Position numbers and translations under genes: made by a program
Assembly (NCBI GenBank): GCA_018714245.1
Contig: DVNQ01000054.1
Location: 1-47,789, forward strand
Source of the DNA: Candidatus Avilachnospira avicola
Lineage (GTDB): Bacteria > Bacillota > Clostridia > Lachnospirales > Lachnospiraceae
Length of the DNA stretch: 47,789 nt
Reading direction: 5' to 3'
Notes under the pieces: generated by a model
What the model was told of the DNA's origin: nothing
The model's input: the letters and a program-made list of their open reading frames with translations, nothing else
Databases searched by the model: none
Part shown: piece by piece, positions 34,357 to 42,377 of the stretch
Position numbering within the stretch: position 1 is the first letter of the stretch
Layout: every line of letters begins with the position of its first letter

Positions 34357-34911
34357 TTATACCTCACCCGCGGTATTATTGCCACCGGAAGGAAGATCTG
34401 AATGATCATTTTCACTGGATCCGGTATCCTTTGGCTCGTCCTTATGCATATCAGGCTCATCCCTGTGTATGTCATGATACTTTCCCGTGCTTCCTCCGCC
34501 TGAAAACATATCCCTTACCTGACGCTCCAGATCCTGGGATCCAATATACTGAGCCCCTCCAAAGCCTGCTACCAGCTCGGCTATGGTAGGGAAGAAGAAA
34601 TAAAGCACTCCGTAAAGCACTGACTGGCCGTAGGAAAGGGTCACCTCAAGGGCATATATCGCATTCATGAAAAATGAAAGCACGGGAATCCACCCGAAAA
34701 TGAAATACCAGCCTGCTCCCATGGTGATCCTGCAGAGCACATAATCCCTGTAGAAAGGCACCCAGGCCTTCCAGCCGTTCTCTCCCGCCTTCTGGAACAT
34801 GCGCATGCGTCCTATGCAGGTCAGGGCATATATGCCTACGATTATCAGGATCACAAATCCTAGCAGCGAAAATGTAACTATAAGACTAACTAATGCACCG
34901 ATGATGTCCAT
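34357..34911 (-). CDS. DUF5684-like membrane protein
   Basis: MRMFQKAGENGWKAWVPFYRDYVLCRI with several TM segments. Confidence 0.7.
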   Translation of the reverse strand: MDIIGALVSLIVTFSLLGFVILIIVGIYALTCIGRMRMFQKAGENGWKAWVPFYRDYVLCRITMGAGWYFIFGWIPVLSFFMNAIYALEVTLSYGQSVLYGVLYFFFPTIAELVAGFGGAQYIGSQDLERQVRDMFSGGGSTGKYHDIHRDEPDMHKDEPKDTGSSENDHSDLPSGGNNTAGEV

Positions 34912-34941: not shown

Positions 34942-36201
34942 TTAATCCAGGCTTACCACTCCGTTCAGTGCCCATTTGTAATTGTTTATGGACTGAACGA
35001 GGTTGAGCCCGGCAAGTTCTGCGGAAGCCCTGTAGCTCGTATATGCCAGCATCTGTGCCTGGTATTCTGAAATGCTCAGCATGCCAAGCCCATACATCCT
35101 GTCAGCAGATGCCCTGGTGCGTTCGGCCTTCTGAAGGGTGGTCTGTGCCGCATCATAGAGGAGCTTCTTCTCCTTCATGTCCGCATAGAGCTCCGAAAGC
35201 TTTGCAGAGAGTTTTCCCATGGCCTCATTTTCCCTGCGGTCACGGCTCTCTGTGCCGGCAGTGGTACCGTCGGACCTTCCGGCATCCTTCACGGTACTGT
35301 TTTCTCCCGCAGCCTTCTGAAGGTCCCGGCTGGGATCCGCTGATTCCAGGTAAGAAATATCCGGCTCCGGCACCTTTCCTATGACGGGCACCGACTGTTT
35401 ATATCCAAGCTGGAGTCCTATGGCCCCCGCAAGCTGCCCTATGGATGCCTCAAGCTGCTGAAGATCGCCTCTGGCAGAAGAGAGGTCCGCCGAGGCAGCA
35501 TTTACCTCCGCCTGGGTACAGAGGCCCTGGGCATAAAGGCCCTGCTGTGTCGCAAGGAGCTTCTCATAAAGGCTGACCTGCTCACTGAGCATGTCCCTGG
35601 ATATGGAAAGCTGCTCATAGGATATGAACAGGCCCTCTACTGCCGACTGAAGCTGCTCCAGTATGGGATAAAGTTGAAACTCCATGGCCTCCCTGGATCT
35701 TACTCCCGTAGAAGTCCCGGAAACATACAGCCTTCCGTCCAGCTGGGCATCCGTGGATGCCAGGGTGTCAAGCCCAGCAATAAGCTCTGCCCTGCCTGTT
35801 ATGGCAGTATCGATCTGCCCCTTAAGGTAAGAAAGATATTCATCCTTCCCGGGGGTCCCCGGCGGCAGAGCCTCCAGTTCCTTCTGCCCTTCGTAAAGGC
35901 TCTCAAGAGCCTTATCTACGCTGGAGAGCTGTTCCTTATACTCCATGAAGTCCGTGCCTATGGAACTCTCAAGGTCCTCCATGGATGCATCTATCTCCGT
36001 CATATAGGATGTATAAAGAGGATTGTAGTATCTTATCAGATCCCCGATCTCATCCCACTCTGCAGTGCCATCATTGAGCCTGTCATAGGTCTCCTGATCC
36101 ATGCCCTCCGGAAGGTTGTCATAGGGAGGTATTGCAAAGGCCGGGACCGACAGGGCCATAAGCATGGCTCCTGAAAGGAGAGTTGCAATAGTTTTTTTCA
36201 T
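34942..36201 (-). CDS. TolC-family-like exported helical protein (1)
   Basis: Signal peptide MKKTIATLLSGAMLMALSVPAFA; tip-like motifs LYAQGLCTQAEVNAAS and MYGLGMLSISEYQAQ; start trimmed from 36267. Confidence 0.72.
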   Translation of the reverse strand: MKKTIATLLSGAMLMALSVPAFAIPPYDNLPEGMDQETYDRLNDGTAEWDEIGDLIRYYNPLYTSYMTEIDASMEDLESSIGTDFMEYKEQLSSVDKALESLYEGQKELEALPPGTPGKDEYLSYLKGQIDTAITGRAELIAGLDTLASTDAQLDGRLYVSGTSTGVRSREAMEFQLYPILEQLQSAVEGLFISYEQLSISRDMLSEQVSLYEKLLATQQGLYAQGLCTQAEVNAASADLSSARGDLQQLEASIGQLAGAIGLQLGYKQSVPVIGKVPEPDISYLESADPSRDLQKAAGENSTVKDAGRSDGTTAGTESRDRRENEAMGKLSAKLSELYADMKEKKLLYDAAQTTLQKAERTRASADRMYGLGMLSISEYQAQMLAYTSYRASAELAGLNLVQSINNYKWALNGVVSLD

Positions 36202-36220
36202 CAAACCGTATCTCATGACT

Positions 36221-37423
36221 TTATGTCGTGCTCCCCGCGGAGGCAAGACCGTCCACGCAGGCGTCATAATTTACCTTGGCAGTCATCACGCCTATCCTCG
36301 CTATCTCTTCATCATATCCGGCACTCTCAAGCTGCTTTACCGCCGTCTGATACTCGCTCTGGCTGATGGAGCCTATCGCAAGGTTCCGTTCTGCGGAGGC
36401 CGCTGCATCAGCCGCAAGCTGCCTTGCGGAAACGGCATCGTTATAGGCATTCCTTGCACTCACAAGGGCATCGTATGCCGATCTTACGGAGGCCCTGACC
36501 TGATCCGTATCATCGGATATCTTCTTTTCATATTTTTCCCGAAGCTGCACATAGTTGTTGCTTGTGTTTGTATTCTGAAGCATCCGCTCATCAGTCCTGA
36601 GGGTATAGTTCTGCTTTATGGCAGTCTCTGTGTCGGCAGCAGGATCTGTGGCGTCGATCTCTGCGATATCGATCTCCGGAAGAGCCCCTATCTCCACGAC
36701 AGAATCATAGCCCCAGCCGCAGGTGACCAAAAGCAGCTTTTTCGTGCTGTCCACCGCAGCATCCGCGGTTATGATCGAAGCCTCTGCCTGCAGCATGCTT
36801 TCCCTGGCCGTAAGCACCTCCGTCTCGGTAGCCATGCCCACATTGAAGCGGTTCACCGCCGAATCATAGGTAAGCTTTGCCGTATCAAGGGCAGTCCGGG
36901 CCTTCTTCTGTTCTTCGATGGAGCTGTAATAATCCAGGAAGGTAAGCCTTGCGTTCTGTACAAGGGAATCCTCTATCCGGTCATAGTTCCATCTGAGGAT
37001 GTCCTTATCGGTCACGTTGTCATCGGCCTGGTCCCTCATGCTGTTGGCCTGGGCACGGTACTGGGCTGCCGAAGCTTCACTGCTCCCGGCTATGTCCATG
37101 GCCATGTTGTCATAGTCATCAGCCTGATCAATCATGGCCTCCCTGATATCCTGGGCATCCATCAGATTGCGTTCATCATCCGCATAGGCCTGCTCATTGT
37201 CCCGTACCGTGGCATTGTATTCATGTATAAGATCCGGTATCTCATCCCAGGTAAGTTTGTCATCCTGAAGCACCGCCCACTCTTCCGCCGTCCGGGAAAA
37301 AGTGGGTGAGGCAAGGGCCGTGAACTCTCCCTGGAAAAGCGCCGCAGCGCTTGCCGCCAGGACCCCGCAGACAGCCAGAGCCCTTTTGGCATCATATCCG
37401 TATCTTCTTTCCTTATGTCTCAT
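36221..37423 (-). CDS. TolC-family-like exported helical protein (2)
   Basis: Exported N-terminus; RFNVGMATETEVLTAR and NLAIGSISQSEYQTAVKQLE; shares the WDEIxDLI motif with protein 1. Confidence 0.75.
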   Translation of the reverse strand: MRHKERRYGYDAKRALAVCGVLAASAAALFQGEFTALASPTFSRTAEEWAVLQDDKLTWDEIPDLIHEYNATVRDNEQAYADDERNLMDAQDIREAMIDQADDYDNMAMDIAGSSEASAAQYRAQANSMRDQADDNVTDKDILRWNYDRIEDSLVQNARLTFLDYYSSIEEQKKARTALDTAKLTYDSAVNRFNVGMATETEVLTARESMLQAEASIITADAAVDSTKKLLLVTCGWGYDSVVEIGALPEIDIAEIDATDPAADTETAIKQNYTLRTDERMLQNTNTSNNYVQLREKYEKKISDDTDQVRASVRSAYDALVSARNAYNDAVSARQLAADAAASAERNLAIGSISQSEYQTAVKQLESAGYDEEIARIGVMTAKVNYDACVDGLASAGSTT

Positions 37424-37499
37424 ATATCTGTTCTCCTGTTCCCATATACTGATTATAAGGGATACAAAACCGGATTCAACTTATATTTATCTTACGAAA

Positions 37500-40400
37500 T
37501 CACAGGCTGTCAAAATCCACCGGCTCAAGCCTTCTCTTCCTGTCGCTGTTGAGCACCGCATATGCCACAGGCAGGACTATGAGGGCCATGATGGTCGCAG
37601 CCGTAAGTCCTCCGATATTGACCAGGGACAGTCCCTGCATGAGCTCTCCCGAGTCCCCGTAACCTACCGCAAGGGGCAGCATGGAAAGAACGGTGGTAAG
37701 GGTAGTCATCATGATGGGCCTGAGTCTGGTAGCGCCCGCCTCTATAAGGGCAGTCGTGATATCCATGCCTTCTCCTCTGTACTGATTTACCGTATCCACA
37801 TAAAGTATTCCGTTATTTACAACGGTACCTATAAGCATAAGGAAGCCTATGAGCTCCACCATGGTTATCTTTACGTCAGTCACCCACAGAAGGAAGAAGG
37901 ATCCTATAAGTCCGAAGGGCACGGTGGCCATGACCATGAATGAGAACTTGGGAGACTCAAACTGGGCTGCCATTACCACAAATACCAGGAACACGGCGAT
38001 AAGGAGACAGGTATAAAGATTTCCGAACTCCTCATTCATCATCTCCGTCATGGTATTTTCCTGGATCTCCACTCCCTCCATGAGATTTGGCTCCACATAT
38101 GCTTCGTAAAGATCCCCGTAGGTCCCCGCATCAGCAAGCTCCGTATATCCGGCAGATATCGTGGCCTGATACTGCCTGTCGGAGCGCATGATGGTCTCGG
38201 GGCTGTCCTTATAGCTTATGTCCGCTATATCCTTGAGAGCGACCTTCCTTCCGGTCTGGGAGGTAAACATGAGATCCTCCACCTCAGCGATCTCATCCAG
38301 CTCCTCTTTGGGGTATTCCACTATGACGGACATGCTGAGTCCATCCACATCCATGGTGTCCACGTCACTTCCGCCCATGATGGAATAAAGGGATGAGGAT
38401 ACTGCTGCCGCATTGAAGCCTTCGGCAGCTGCCCTGATCGGATCTATGTCTATCTGTATCAGCGGAGCTGAATTAGCAAGGGTCGAGGTGGCTCCCGTTA
38501 CCCTCTCATCCAGCATGAGCTCATCGGTTATGGCGTCCGTAACAGCTTTAAGATCGTCATAATCCGGGCTCACCAGGCTCAGCGAAAATCCTCCGCCCTC
38601 ATTGAGTATGCCCGTGGTGGAATATTCCTCCACGCTGATATCGCAGTCGCTTACTGACTGAAGCTCTTTCCTCCAGTCTGCAGCCACCTCTTTTGAGGAT
38701 CTTTCCCGGTCGGATCTCAGGTAAGCCGTAAGGCTTCCGGTACCGGAACTGGAGGTGATCATATAGTCTTCCAGATCTCCGTCCTCAGTTACTATCGCCT
38801 CCACGGTTCTGAATATCCTGTCCTGCTCCTCTATATTGAGGCCTGGCCTTGTCTCTATGGAAATGTTTATGGTGCCTTCATCAGTCTCCGGCATCATCTG
38901 TACGCCTATATCCGCAGCCATTACGAGTGAAGCCACGAAAAGTCCGAGTGTCGTTATGAGAGTCAGCTTCCTGTGTCTGAGGATCTTCTTCATCAGGCTC
39001 CGGTATCCTGACTGGAGGCTCCTCATGAAAGAATATGCGGGAGCCTTCGTTCTCTCTTCAGGCCTGTAATAGGTATAGCAGAGAGGTACTATAGTGACCG
39101 CAGACAGAAGTGACGCAGCCATACAGAATACTATGGTCATGCCGAGGGGCTGGAAGAACTGGCCCGCAAGGCCGCTCATCATGCCAAGGGGGAAGAATAC
39201 GACCACTGTGGTCGCCGTAGAGCCGAATACCGAAGCACCCACGGTCCTTACTCCGCCTACCGCAGCCCTCACGTAGTTTTTGAAGTTCCTCTCCTTTTCA
39301 TTGTCCATGGCCCTGAAGCAGGCCTCAAGTACGACTATGGAGTTGTCCACCATCATGCCGACTCCCAGTACCACTGATCCCAGAGTGATGACGTTATAGG
39401 AATATCCCATGAACCACATCATAATCACTGCCGCAAGTATGGATATCGGTATGGAGGTAGCGACTATGAGAGATGCCTTTACATCTCCGAAGAAAAGATA
39501 AAGTACAAGCGTGGAAATGACTATGGCAAGCGCCATGGTGCTCACTACTGACTTCACCGAGCTCAGGATCTGATCGGCGCTGTCATTTATGACACGGATC
39601 TCTATGTTGGGGTTCTCTGCCTCCAGCTTCCTTATGGCTTCGGTTGCCTGTCTTGACACATCCACCGCCGTATATTTCTGGTTCCTGCTGATGGAAAGGA
39701 TGATCGTATCGCTGCCGTTGAATCGGCCTATGGCAGAAGCGTCCTCACTTGTCCTCCTGACCTCCGCGATATCCCGGAGGTATATGATATTGCCTCCGCC
39801 TATGGTGATCGGTATATTTTCAAGGTCCTCAGGAGCAGCATATTCTACTCCGCTTGAGATACTGAGCTCCGTATTTCCTACTCCGGTGGAGCCTCCGGGC
39901 ATGGTATAGGAGGCTGCTCCCACAAGCTGTGCCACCGTCATCATGTCCAGATGATACTGCTCCAGCTTTTCAGGGATCAGGCTCACGCTTATATATTCCT
40001 CAGAACCTCCGGAAAGGGTCACGGAAGCTACGGAGTACAGCTTCTCGAATTCCGGGACTATCTCCTTTTCCGTATAATTATATATGTTGTTGATACCCTC
40101 CACGTTTATGCTCAGGGACATGGATGCCACCTGATTTATATCCATCTCTATGATGGTAGGGTCCCCCACATCCTCGGGAAGTGAGGAAAGCACCAGATCC
40201 AGTCTCTTTCTCAGGTCCGAATAGGCGTTGTCCATATCCGTACCGTATTCATACTGGATAAGCACCATGGAGACATTTTCCGAGGACTGGCTCGTAATGG
40301 TATCTATATCCCCAAGGGTGGATATCTGCTCCTCTATGGGCTGGGTGACCAGCTCATCTATATCCTCCGGCGAGGCGCCTGCATAGGTAGTCGTAACGAT

Positions 40401-40538
40401 CAGCATGGGCATGCTGATCTCCGGAGTCAGCTCAAGCCTGCTGTTTATCACTGCCATGGCTCCGAAGAAGATCATGCAGAGGACTCCCAGCAGTGTGGTC
40501 ACCGGCCTTTTCAGGACGAATTTGCTTATGCCTGTCAT
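37500..40538 (-). CDS. RND (HAE1/AcrB-like) efflux permease
   Basis: ISKFVLKRPVTTLLGVLCMIFFG; GASPEDIDELVTQPIEEQI; TM4 GVGMMVDNSIVVLEA; 1012 aa. Confidence 0.96.
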   Translation of the reverse strand: MTGISKFVLKRPVTTLLGVLCMIFFGAMAVINSRLELTPEISMPMLIVTTTYAGASPEDIDELVTQPIEEQISTLGDIDTITSQSSENVSMVLIQYEYGTDMDNAYSDLRKRLDLVLSSLPEDVGDPTIIEMDINQVASMSLSINVEGINNIYNYTEKEIVPEFEKLYSVASVTLSGGSEEYISVSLIPEKLEQYHLDMMTVAQLVGAASYTMPGGSTGVGNTELSISSGVEYAAPEDLENIPITIGGGNIIYLRDIAEVRRTSEDASAIGRFNGSDTIILSISRNQKYTAVDVSRQATEAIRKLEAENPNIEIRVINDSADQILSSVKSVVSTMALAIVISTLVLYLFFGDVKASLIVATSIPISILAAVIMMWFMGYSYNVITLGSVVLGVGMMVDNSIVVLEACFRAMDNEKERNFKNYVRAAVGGVRTVGASVFGSTATTVVVFFPLGMMSGLAGQFFQPLGMTIVFCMAASLLSAVTIVPLCYTYYRPEERTKAPAYSFMRSLQSGYRSLMKKILRHRKLTLITTLGLFVASLVMAADIGVQMMPETDEGTINISIETRPGLNIEEQDRIFRTVEAIVTEDGDLEDYMITSSSGTGSLTAYLRSDRERSSKEVAADWRKELQSVSDCDISVEEYSTTGILNEGGGFSLSLVSPDYDDLKAVTDAITDELMLDERVTGATSTLANSAPLIQIDIDPIRAAAEGFNAAAVSSSLYSIMGGSDVDTMDVDGLSMSVIVEYPKEELDEIAEVEDLMFTSQTGRKVALKDIADISYKDSPETIMRSDRQYQATISAGYTELADAGTYGDLYEAYVEPNLMEGVEIQENTMTEMMNEEFGNLYTCLLIAVFLVFVVMAAQFESPKFSFMVMATVPFGLIGSFFLLWVTDVKITMVELIGFLMLIGTVVNNGILYVDTVNQYRGEGMDITTALIEAGATRLRPIMMTTLTTVLSMLPLAVGYGDSGELMQGLSLVNIGGLTAATIMALIVLPVAYAVLNSDRKRRLEPVDFDSL

Positions 40539-40539
40539 A

Positions 40540-41694
40540 TCAGCCCTCCTTGGGAAGCACCTGTACCTGCGCTCCTTCGTAAAGCTGTGCGGTCCAGCTC
40601 ACTATAACTTCCGCATCATCCTCTATGCCGCTTATGATCTCCGTACGCTCTCCATCGGAAAGCCCGGTCTCAACGGCTGTCTTATGTACCGTGGCGAGCT
40701 TGTTCTGCTCTGAGATCATGGCTTCCTCAGAGAGGCTTTCCCCGGAGTCCCCATCATAGGTGACCGTATATACATAAGTCAGGCCTCCGTCATAGGTCAC
40801 CGCATCAGTCGGTACCGTCAGGGCATCCTCTGCCCTTTCCGACACAAAATATACCTTGATGCCTGATCCTACTGCTATATTTTCAGCTCCTTCTATGGAA
40901 GCTTCAACTCCGAAAAGCCCTGTCTGCGTATTCGGCATCAGATCCACTGAAGTTATGGTGCCTTCATACTCCGTTCCCTGCCTTTCCATATGTACGGGGA
41001 CTCCGGCCTCAACCGCTGAAAGCAGCCTGTCCGGCACGGAAAACTGTACCTTGCGGGCACCTTCTCCTGAAATCACGCAGAGCTGTGATGAAGGCGCTGC
41101 CATGGCATTGAGCTCCATACTCTCAGATTCTACCGTACCGCTTACAGGAGCAGTGACTACTGAAAGCTCAGACTGAGAATCATAGGAAAGCTGCGCTGCA
41201 TCCAGCTGAGCGCAGGCCTGATCATATGCCGTCTTTGCCTGCTCGTAGGTCTGCCTGGACACATCTCCGGTCTGCAGAAGGGCACTCATCCGATCCAGGC
41301 TGGTCTTTGCCGTATCTACGGCTATCCTGGCAGTATCCCTCTGTATCCTTGCAGCCTCCACCTGGTCCTCATTGTCGATGCGGCAGATGGGATCTCCTTC
41401 ATTTACGGTATCTCCCTGGGATACATAGATCTCCCTGATCTCTCCTGAGGTCTTGGGCATAACATAATAGACGCTGGCAGGCATAAGCGTGCCTACCATG
41501 CTGGTCTCAAGCTCTATGTCCGTCCGCTCGGGAGCCTCCGTCGATACCGAAGACAGGGGGACCGTCACTATGGGATCCTCCGGTTTCATAAACCTTTTTA
41601 TGACTGCCGCAGCAATGATGATAAGACATGCCGCAAGCATGATGCGCCATATCCTGCGGCCTCTGTTGTCTGCCTTTATCTCTTCCGTACTCAT
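40540..41694 (-). CDS. RND efflux periplasmic-type adaptor (HlyD/AcrA family)
   Basis: N-terminal TM; split lipoyl GEIREIYVSQGDTVNEGDPICRID / VTAPVSGTVES; helical hairpin with DRMSALLQTGDVS. Confidence 0.93.
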   Translation of the reverse strand: MSTEEIKADNRGRRIWRIMLAACLIIIAAAVIKRFMKPEDPIVTVPLSSVSTEAPERTDIELETSMVGTLMPASVYYVMPKTSGEIREIYVSQGDTVNEGDPICRIDNEDQVEAARIQRDTARIAVDTAKTSLDRMSALLQTGDVSRQTYEQAKTAYDQACAQLDAAQLSYDSQSELSVVTAPVSGTVESESMELNAMAAPSSQLCVISGEGARKVQFSVPDRLLSAVEAGVPVHMERQGTEYEGTITSVDLMPNTQTGLFGVEASIEGAENIAVGSGIKVYFVSERAEDALTVPTDAVTYDGGLTYVYTVTYDGDSGESLSEEAMISEQNKLATVHKTAVETGLSDGERTEIISGIEDDAEVIVSWTAQLYEGAQVQVLPKEG

Positions 41695-42302
41695 TTTATG
41701 ATCAGTCCTTTCTTAATAATGTCAAGCATCTCATAGTATCGTCTCATGGCCCTGTCCCTGTCCTCTCCATATACGATGAGCCTTCCCGCCGTCATGAAGA
41801 TAAGCATCATCAGATGCAGAAACACGTCCCTGAATATGTCCATGTCCTTTACCCGGTAACGGCTTCTGTCGATCCGTTCCCAGATCCAGCAGCAGAACTC
41901 CCGTGTCAGCTCATCCTCCTCTGGTTTGGAATCCATGAACTGTATGACACCCTTCTTTATGGCAGTATTATGGGTGAGGTCGCAGACGCCGAAGCGCCGG
42001 AATACCTCTTCATAATGCCCGATGGACTTGAGCATCAGTGCATCCACATCAAAATCATGGTCCACAAGATAAGCCTTTGCAGTCTCATACTCCCTTTTCC
42101 TGAAGGTCCGTATCAGATGATCCAGCACGTCCTGCTTGTCCCTGAAATACGTATAGAAGCTGCCCCTGCTTATCCCGGCATCCTTTATGATCCGGTTTAT
42201 GGAAATGTCTTCCATGGGATGGGCACTGAATTCCCTTACAGCGGCAGCCATTATCTTTTCCTGTTTTTCTTCTCCAAGATGCAGGAATCTCTCCGTGGGC
42301 AT
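41691..42302 (-). CDS. TetR-family regulator
   Basis: AAAVREFSAHPMEDISINRIIKDAGISRGSFYTYFRDKQDVLDHL; start trimmed to an ATG with AAAGGAGG RBS. Confidence 0.93.
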   Translation of the reverse strand: MPTERFLHLGEEKQEKIMAAAVREFSAHPMEDISINRIIKDAGISRGSFYTYFRDKQDVLDHLIRTFRKREYETAKAYLVDHDFDVDALMLKSIGHYEEVFRRFGVCDLTHNTAIKKGVIQFMDSKPEEDELTREFCCWIWERIDRSRYRVKDMDIFRDVFLHLMMLIFMTAGRLIVYGEDRDRAMRRYYEMLDIIKKGLIIK

Positions 42303-42335: not shown

Positions 42336-42370
42336 GTGACAGTTTGTCATTTTAGATGACAGACTGTCAC
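42336..42370. promoter_or_regulatory. Probable TetR operator
   Basis: GTGACAGTTTGTCAT-tttag-ATGACAGACTGTCAC, 14/15 arm match. Confidence 0.85.
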
Positions 42371-42377
42371 TTGTCAA
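42349..42377 (-). promoter_or_regulatory. Sigma-A promoter of the tetR-RND-tolC operon
   Basis: TTGACA - 17 bp - TAAAAT on the minus strand, overlapped by the operator. Confidence 0.82.

Follow-up and report, generated by a model that had tools for sequence, protein, structure and literature searches.

An RND export operon with two barrel-less TolC-like proteins in an apparently monoderm member of the Lachnospiraceae

TolC-family proteins are textbook outer-membrane markers. What purpose could two of them serve in a bacterium whose genome bears no sign of an outer membrane? The question is raised by Candidatus Avilachnospira avicola (Lachnospiraceae; assembly GCA_018714245.1), of which contig DVNQ01000054.1 (contig 17 in a draft genome of 1.58 Mb) was analysed over positions 1 to 47,789; this whole stretch is referred to as the window. 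A densely packed minus-strand operon spanning 34942-42302 encodes, in the order of transcription, a TetR-family regulator, an adaptor, a permease of the resistance-nodulation-division (RND) type, and two TolC-like proteins, termed alpha and beta. Both TolC-like proteins lack the beta-barrel, and they occur as an obligate pair in the corresponding operons of related genomes. The answer favoured here, with moderate confidence, is that alpha and beta are subunits of a single hetero-oligomeric tube of helices, which would dock tip-to-tip with the adaptor of a TetR-controlled RND export pump in a monoderm host. The five genes are the following.

41691..42302, minus strand: TetR-family regulator (TetR_N/TetR_C_19; PF00440, E 5.9e-12, and PF17924), start codon ATG at 42302
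40540..41694, minus strand: RND adaptor (HlyD/AcrA-type membrane fusion protein; TIGR01730, E 3e-48) with an N-terminal transmembrane anchor and a short hairpin
37500..40538, minus strand: RND (HAE-1-like) permease of 1012 aa (ACR_tran, PF00873, E 3e-201, 671 bits)
36221..37423, minus strand: barrel-less TolC-like alpha subunit of 400 aa (PF02321, AlphaFold, Foldseek; alpha clade support 95/92)
34942..36216, minus strand: barrel-less TolC-like beta subunit (PF02321, AlphaFold, Foldseek, start-site inspection)

All members of this five-gene array, as described in the original prediction, were found, and their families were assigned by profile search. The adaptor scores 164 bits against TIGR01730, above the cut-off of 94.9, and its profile matches in the PDB are MexJ, MexC-like, AcrA, and MacA; the solved structure nearest to the permease is MdtB (E 2.5e-78). 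Permease and adaptor are encoded in the same operon, as in tripartite RND efflux systems. Both TolC-like proteins score above the curated cut-off of 22 for the OEP signature PF02321, with 26.1 and 39.4 bits. Translation of beta probably begins at an in-frame ATG directly past the alpha stop codon, at 36216 or 36201, rather than at 36267.

The first step concerns the barrel itself, which had been predicted to be missing from both proteins, and several comparisons bear this out. Each protein aligns to the OEP profile (187 positions) at 90-182 only, the helical tip-side part, and matches between the alpha and beta family profiles and the TolC, OprM, and VceC chains are confined to the helical repeat segments. 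AlphaFold models built with templates off reach a mean predicted local distance difference test score (pLDDT) of 86.9 for alpha and 85.3 for beta; they consist of helices only, no strand of three or more residues being present in either. With Foldseek, the first 44 matches for each protein are TolC-family channels (best E 2.1e-7 for alpha and 8.6e-6 for beta). Taken together, the AlphaFold models, the Foldseek matches and residue conservation describe two structural repeats, a helical-barrel fold and glycine tip motifs in both proteins. The distance from tip glycine to tip glycine is 218 in TolC as against 149-156 in alpha-type proteins (n=118) and about 149 in beta, where the spacings were counted from the residue past the tip-1 glycine and are hence one too small, with no effect on the conclusions. 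The tips are thus separated by 60-70 residues fewer than in TolC, at the place where the beta-barrel strands would be. In repeat 1, polar helices of about 56 residues (alpha) and about 67 residues (beta) occupy the barrel position; in repeat 2, 13-25 polar residues forming a short turn or linker are found there. These replacement regions are hydrophilic, with a mean grand average of hydropathy (GRAVY) of -0.75 to -1.18. The long helices of the models comprise about 55-59 residues; with a rise of 1.5 Angstrom per residue, this corresponds to ~8-9 nm. TolC-like proteins of other clostridial families show inter-tip distances of mostly 166-174, in some cases 140-159. One clostridial TolC-like protein (L220:8140-9456) has an inter-tip distance of 225, as a full barrel would give; its reading as a barrel was rejected, the insert being a polar, proline-rich linker equal in length to the TolC barrel segment and the genome lacking BamA.

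The second step concerns the contact between channel and adaptor. The original prediction had noted an RxxxLxxxxxxS motif in the adaptor hairpin and two repeat-tip motifs in each TolC-like protein. All of them are present, at the following positions.

41257..41292, minus strand: adaptor hairpin tip with the RLS docking motif, RMSALLQTGDVS, identified by residue conservation in Lachnospiraceae adaptors
36815..36847, minus strand: alpha tip 1, FNVGMATETEV (G196 97%, T199 100%, A206 100%; 92 loci)
36350..36382, minus strand: alpha tip 2, LAIGSISQSEY (G351 99%; 92 loci)
35503..35535, minus strand: beta tip 1, YAQGLCTQAEV (G248 91%; 92 loci)
35062..35094, minus strand: beta tip 2, YGLGMLSISEY (G395 96%, Y402 92%; 92 loci)

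Within the adaptor hairpin, DRMSALLQTGDVS carries the motif residues R135, L139, and S146. In 115/115 Lachnospiraceae adaptors, the arginine, the leucine and the glycine that follows are invariant; at the last position, serine is found in 89, alanine in 24, and threonine in 2 (serine or alanine in 113/115). Given this invariance, the adaptor motif is no chance match. The four tip glycines are conserved to 91-99%. Tip-to-tip contact between RLS and VGL motifs has been established in other pumps (PMC13328181), and RLS conservation has also been treated elsewhere (PMC8277102). Conservation on both sides of the presumed interface suggests that the alpha and beta tips dock on the RLS tips of the adaptor. 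Docking would also be the most obvious means of retaining the two proteins, since a search for anchors in alpha and beta revealed no LPxTG/sortase motif, no majority with a lipobox and almost no additional transmembrane segment. The span of the adaptor hairpin is 77/78 or 92 among the window adaptor and loci L052-L086, a difference of about two heptads; with a span of 78, the window adaptor is exceeded by several others from its genus.

The third step concerns the pairing of alpha and beta. Eighty loci were recruited by alignment of the RND pump alone, so that no selection for TolC-like genes was exerted; a single-protein contig scan with alpha returned no relatives, and the alpha alignment contained no stretch conserved enough for scanning. 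Of these loci, 71 have over 2.9 kb of downstream sequence, and in 70 of them exactly two TolC-like genes follow straight after the pump. The exception (L169:1668-5835) comes from Anaerovorax odorimutans, named outside the Lachnospiraceae; it has adaptor and RND genes of the clade, and no TolC-like gene lies within 7.5 kb downstream. One alpha and one beta gene are present in 92/92 Lachnospiraceae operons, their order being reversed in 13 loci. In a tree of 205 proteins, the 184 Lachnospiraceae rows fall into one clade (support 100) that splits into alpha (98) and beta. In a more careful tree, built from 68 rows, the alpha clade has a support of 95/92, and beta is a clade or a paraphyletic remainder (2 changes). 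Judged by these trees and gene arrangements, the alpha and beta genes are ancient paralogues that are inherited together as a pair. The ispE-GntR synteny upstream of the operon is found across several genera, which speaks for vertical descent. In other clostridial families, RND operons usually hold a single TolC-like gene (12/12 sampled), often in a different gene order.

A survey of the family extends this picture. Many of its OEP matches lie in frames of 650-1470 aa and are probably coiled-coil cross-hits; prevalence was therefore drawn from the alpha profile, according to which the paired system is present in 32/334 genera sampled. Alpha/beta-type proteins came in even numbers (2 or 4) in 34/37 positive genomes, although no more than four candidates per genome were scored. 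Alpha+beta pairs also occur away from any adjacent RND or adaptor gene, at L088:7295-9877 (behind a TetR gene) and at L091:7762-10234. A lone TolC-like gene beside glycosyltransferases (L087:8787-10043) is ambiguous between alpha and beta.

Two genes need not mean one tube. Known outer-membrane factors are homotrimers, and alpha and beta each retain two repeats, two tips and equatorial motifs, so each might build its own barrel-less homotrimeric tube, the two sharing one pump, for example according to substrate or condition. This arrangement is considered rather unlikely. The strict composition of one alpha plus one beta is kept in every operon, including those with flipped gene order, and both the two pump-free pairs and the near absence of single-gene operons fit an obligate partner better.

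The fourth step concerns the envelope in which a joint tube would have to function. The host had been predicted to have no outer membrane, and the gene content agrees: Omp85/BamA and LpxC were each detected in 0/41 genomes of relatives, with Gram-negative controls positive, and BamA in 0/20 genomes of other clostridial families that carry TolC-like genes, while a sortase is encoded in 24/41 relatives, the source genome among them. On these markers, the host is a member of a monoderm lineage. TolC-like genes of the alpha/beta kind are present in 25/25 genomes of the genus. A proposal published for TolC-like proteins of monoderms holds that their altered top is housed in a proteinaceous surface layer (S-layer), with reference to co-occurring S-layer genes and to the C. 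difficile secretome, which includes a TolC-like protein (PMC8809574). The hydrophilic top of alpha and beta would suit such a housing. The genus, however, lends it little support. In 23 genomes, all with TolC-like genes, SLH is absent in 13 and weakly matched in the rest, usually once, although one genome has 4 matches; CW_binding_2 occurs in 1/23, a genome with 5% contamination. In families of the order other than this one, 13/14 genomes gave 9-60 strong SLH matches. S-layer housing is accordingly not supported for this genus and appears improbable as the explanation of the window operon, S-layers of another type or anchor being possible.

That alpha and beta are decaying leftovers of a diderm ancestor, with no channel function, is more improbable still. 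The barrel has indeed been lost, and the intermediate spacing of 166-174 in other Clostridia resembles stepwise erosion; tip, equatorial and N-terminal residues are nevertheless invariant across a family of about 30% mean identity, and each paralogue is kept in every operon. Finally, the reading of the proteins as ordinary outer-membrane factors of a diderm host or of a contaminant contig, prompted by the fact that TolC-family genes usually mark diderms, was rejected as next to impossible in view of the missing BamA and LpxC, the genus-wide presence of the genes, the ispE-GntR synteny across genera and the strandless models.

The hetero-oligomeric tube favoured here can be described as follows. 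Amphiphilic compounds in the membrane, or in the space above it, would be picked up by the RND trimer, on which six adaptors would form a funnel. The outer-membrane channel would be replaced by two secreted, all-helical TolC homologues, alpha and beta, which would jointly build a single tube with VGL-type tips at its lower rim, docking on the RLS tips of the adaptor. In place of the lost barrel, repeat 1 has a polar helical arm and repeat 2 a short turn or linker. Cargo would be released at a distance from the membrane surface, in the inner wall zone or past it. A helical conduit across the thick cell wall had been suggested as possible; the missing outer membrane, the missing barrel and the conservation of both halves of the interface speak for a conduit, whereas its reach would fall short of that suggestion. 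At about 8-9 nm, the tube would span a periplasm-like inner wall zone and not the thick peptidoglycan, unless rings stack. There is perhaps an even chance that such an obligate alpha+beta tube represents both a heteromeric channel part and a soluble trans-periplasm conduit that requires neither an outer membrane nor the beta-barrel assembly machinery (BAM).

Several points weigh against this reading. The AlphaFold models are those of monomers only, and the pairing as such also fits two separate homotrimers on one pump. Evolutionary rates, corrected for pump and adaptor, show a partial correlation of 0.61 between alpha and beta, compared with 0.71 for RND and adaptor, a known complex, and -0.05 to 0.23 for other pairs; the alpha-beta value is supportive only and may reflect shared fast evolution. 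The pump itself departs from its best-known relative as well. Aligned with AcrB, the proton relay keeps D398 (D407 in AcrB), while N399 replaces D408 and N908 replaces K940; these residues are retained in RND homologues (D398 in 129/129, N399 in 127/129, N908 in 128/129), and R938/R940 are conserved. In AcrB, single substitutions of these relay residues abolish transport (PMC8277102). Energy coupling must therefore differ in detail from AcrB, and with a D-N-N relay, drug antiport of the AcrB type is not to be taken for granted.

Control of the operon can be read from the region in front of the TetR gene, where two elements overlap.

42349..42377, minus strand: sigma-70-like operon promoter, TTGACA-17-TAAAAT (consensus scan, 11/12 matches, best in the region)
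42336..42370, minus strand: putative TetR operator, a 35-bp near-perfect palindrome, GTGACAGTCTGTCATCTAAAATGACAAACTGTCAC, read from the sequence and overlapping the -10 box

Six or more relatives (among them L053, L055, L056, L058, L061, L066) have units of TGACAnnnTGTCA arranged likewise in front of TetR. No match to the operator pattern is expected in shuffled sequence, although the pattern itself had been taken from the window site. Because the palindrome lies over the -10 box and a like arrangement precedes TetR in relatives, auto-repression by TetR appears likely, and control by TetR suggests inducible efflux of amphiphiles. At the other end of the operon, a DUF5684 membrane protein (window 34357-34911) begins 30 bases past beta and adjoins the operon also in L052, L053, L054, and L058; it is a possible extra operon member.

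The family-wide, vertically inherited occurrence of barrel-less alpha and beta suggests that an adaptor-docking helical tube can persist for its own sake after loss of the outer membrane; if alpha and beta do form an obligate tube, it would show how the channel part was re-engineered following that loss. Such a pump would be relevant to the tolerance of gut Lachnospiraceae to drugs and host compounds. The housing and assembly of TolC-like proteins in monoderms, a question dating from 2022, thereby becomes directly testable in culturable Lacrimispora, Hungatella, and Oribacterium.

That monoderms may have TolC-dependent pumps is an idea already outlined in 2022: TolC-like proteins were described in adaptor and pump operons of monoderm Firmicutes lacking BAM, and a Phyre2 model of the C. 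difficile protein showed an omission within the beta-barrel domain (PLoS Biol 2022, PMC8809574). One of the 12 operons in that study, from L. gingivalis, has two TolC-like genes. What is added here is the obligate pairing of alpha with beta and, in confident models, the loss of the entire barrel; literature searches, with subscription papers outside their scope, returned no earlier report of the pairing. The window operon resembles the pumps of 2022 in combining TolC-like, adaptor and pump genes in a single-membrane host, in its hydrophilic altered barrel region and in the absence of BamA. It differs from them in that the barrel is wholly gone in confident models, the genus has few S-layer anchor genes, and the pair goes back to an ancient duplication into alpha and beta that has become fixed in the pump operons of the Lachnospiraceae. 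With MacAB-type ATP-binding cassette (ABC) systems of Gram-positive bacteria it shares adaptor-based export in a monoderm, although here export is RND-driven and the alpha/beta subunits are paired. In other Clostridia, operons for an adaptor and a MacB/FtsX-type ABC pump also encode a single barrel-less TolC-like protein (L202:5002-9499 and L209:4806-9425); the barrel-less conduit is therefore not restricted to RND pumps. AcrAB-TolC and MexAB-OprM share with the window operon a TetR-type regulator, a HlyD/AcrA-type adaptor with RLS tip, an HAE-1-like RND permease and a glycine-tipped channel protein built from TolC repeats. In contrast to these systems, the window operon encodes a channel without beta-barrel for a host apparently without outer membrane, employs two paralogous channel genes, and carries a D-N-N rather than a D-D-K relay in its pump.

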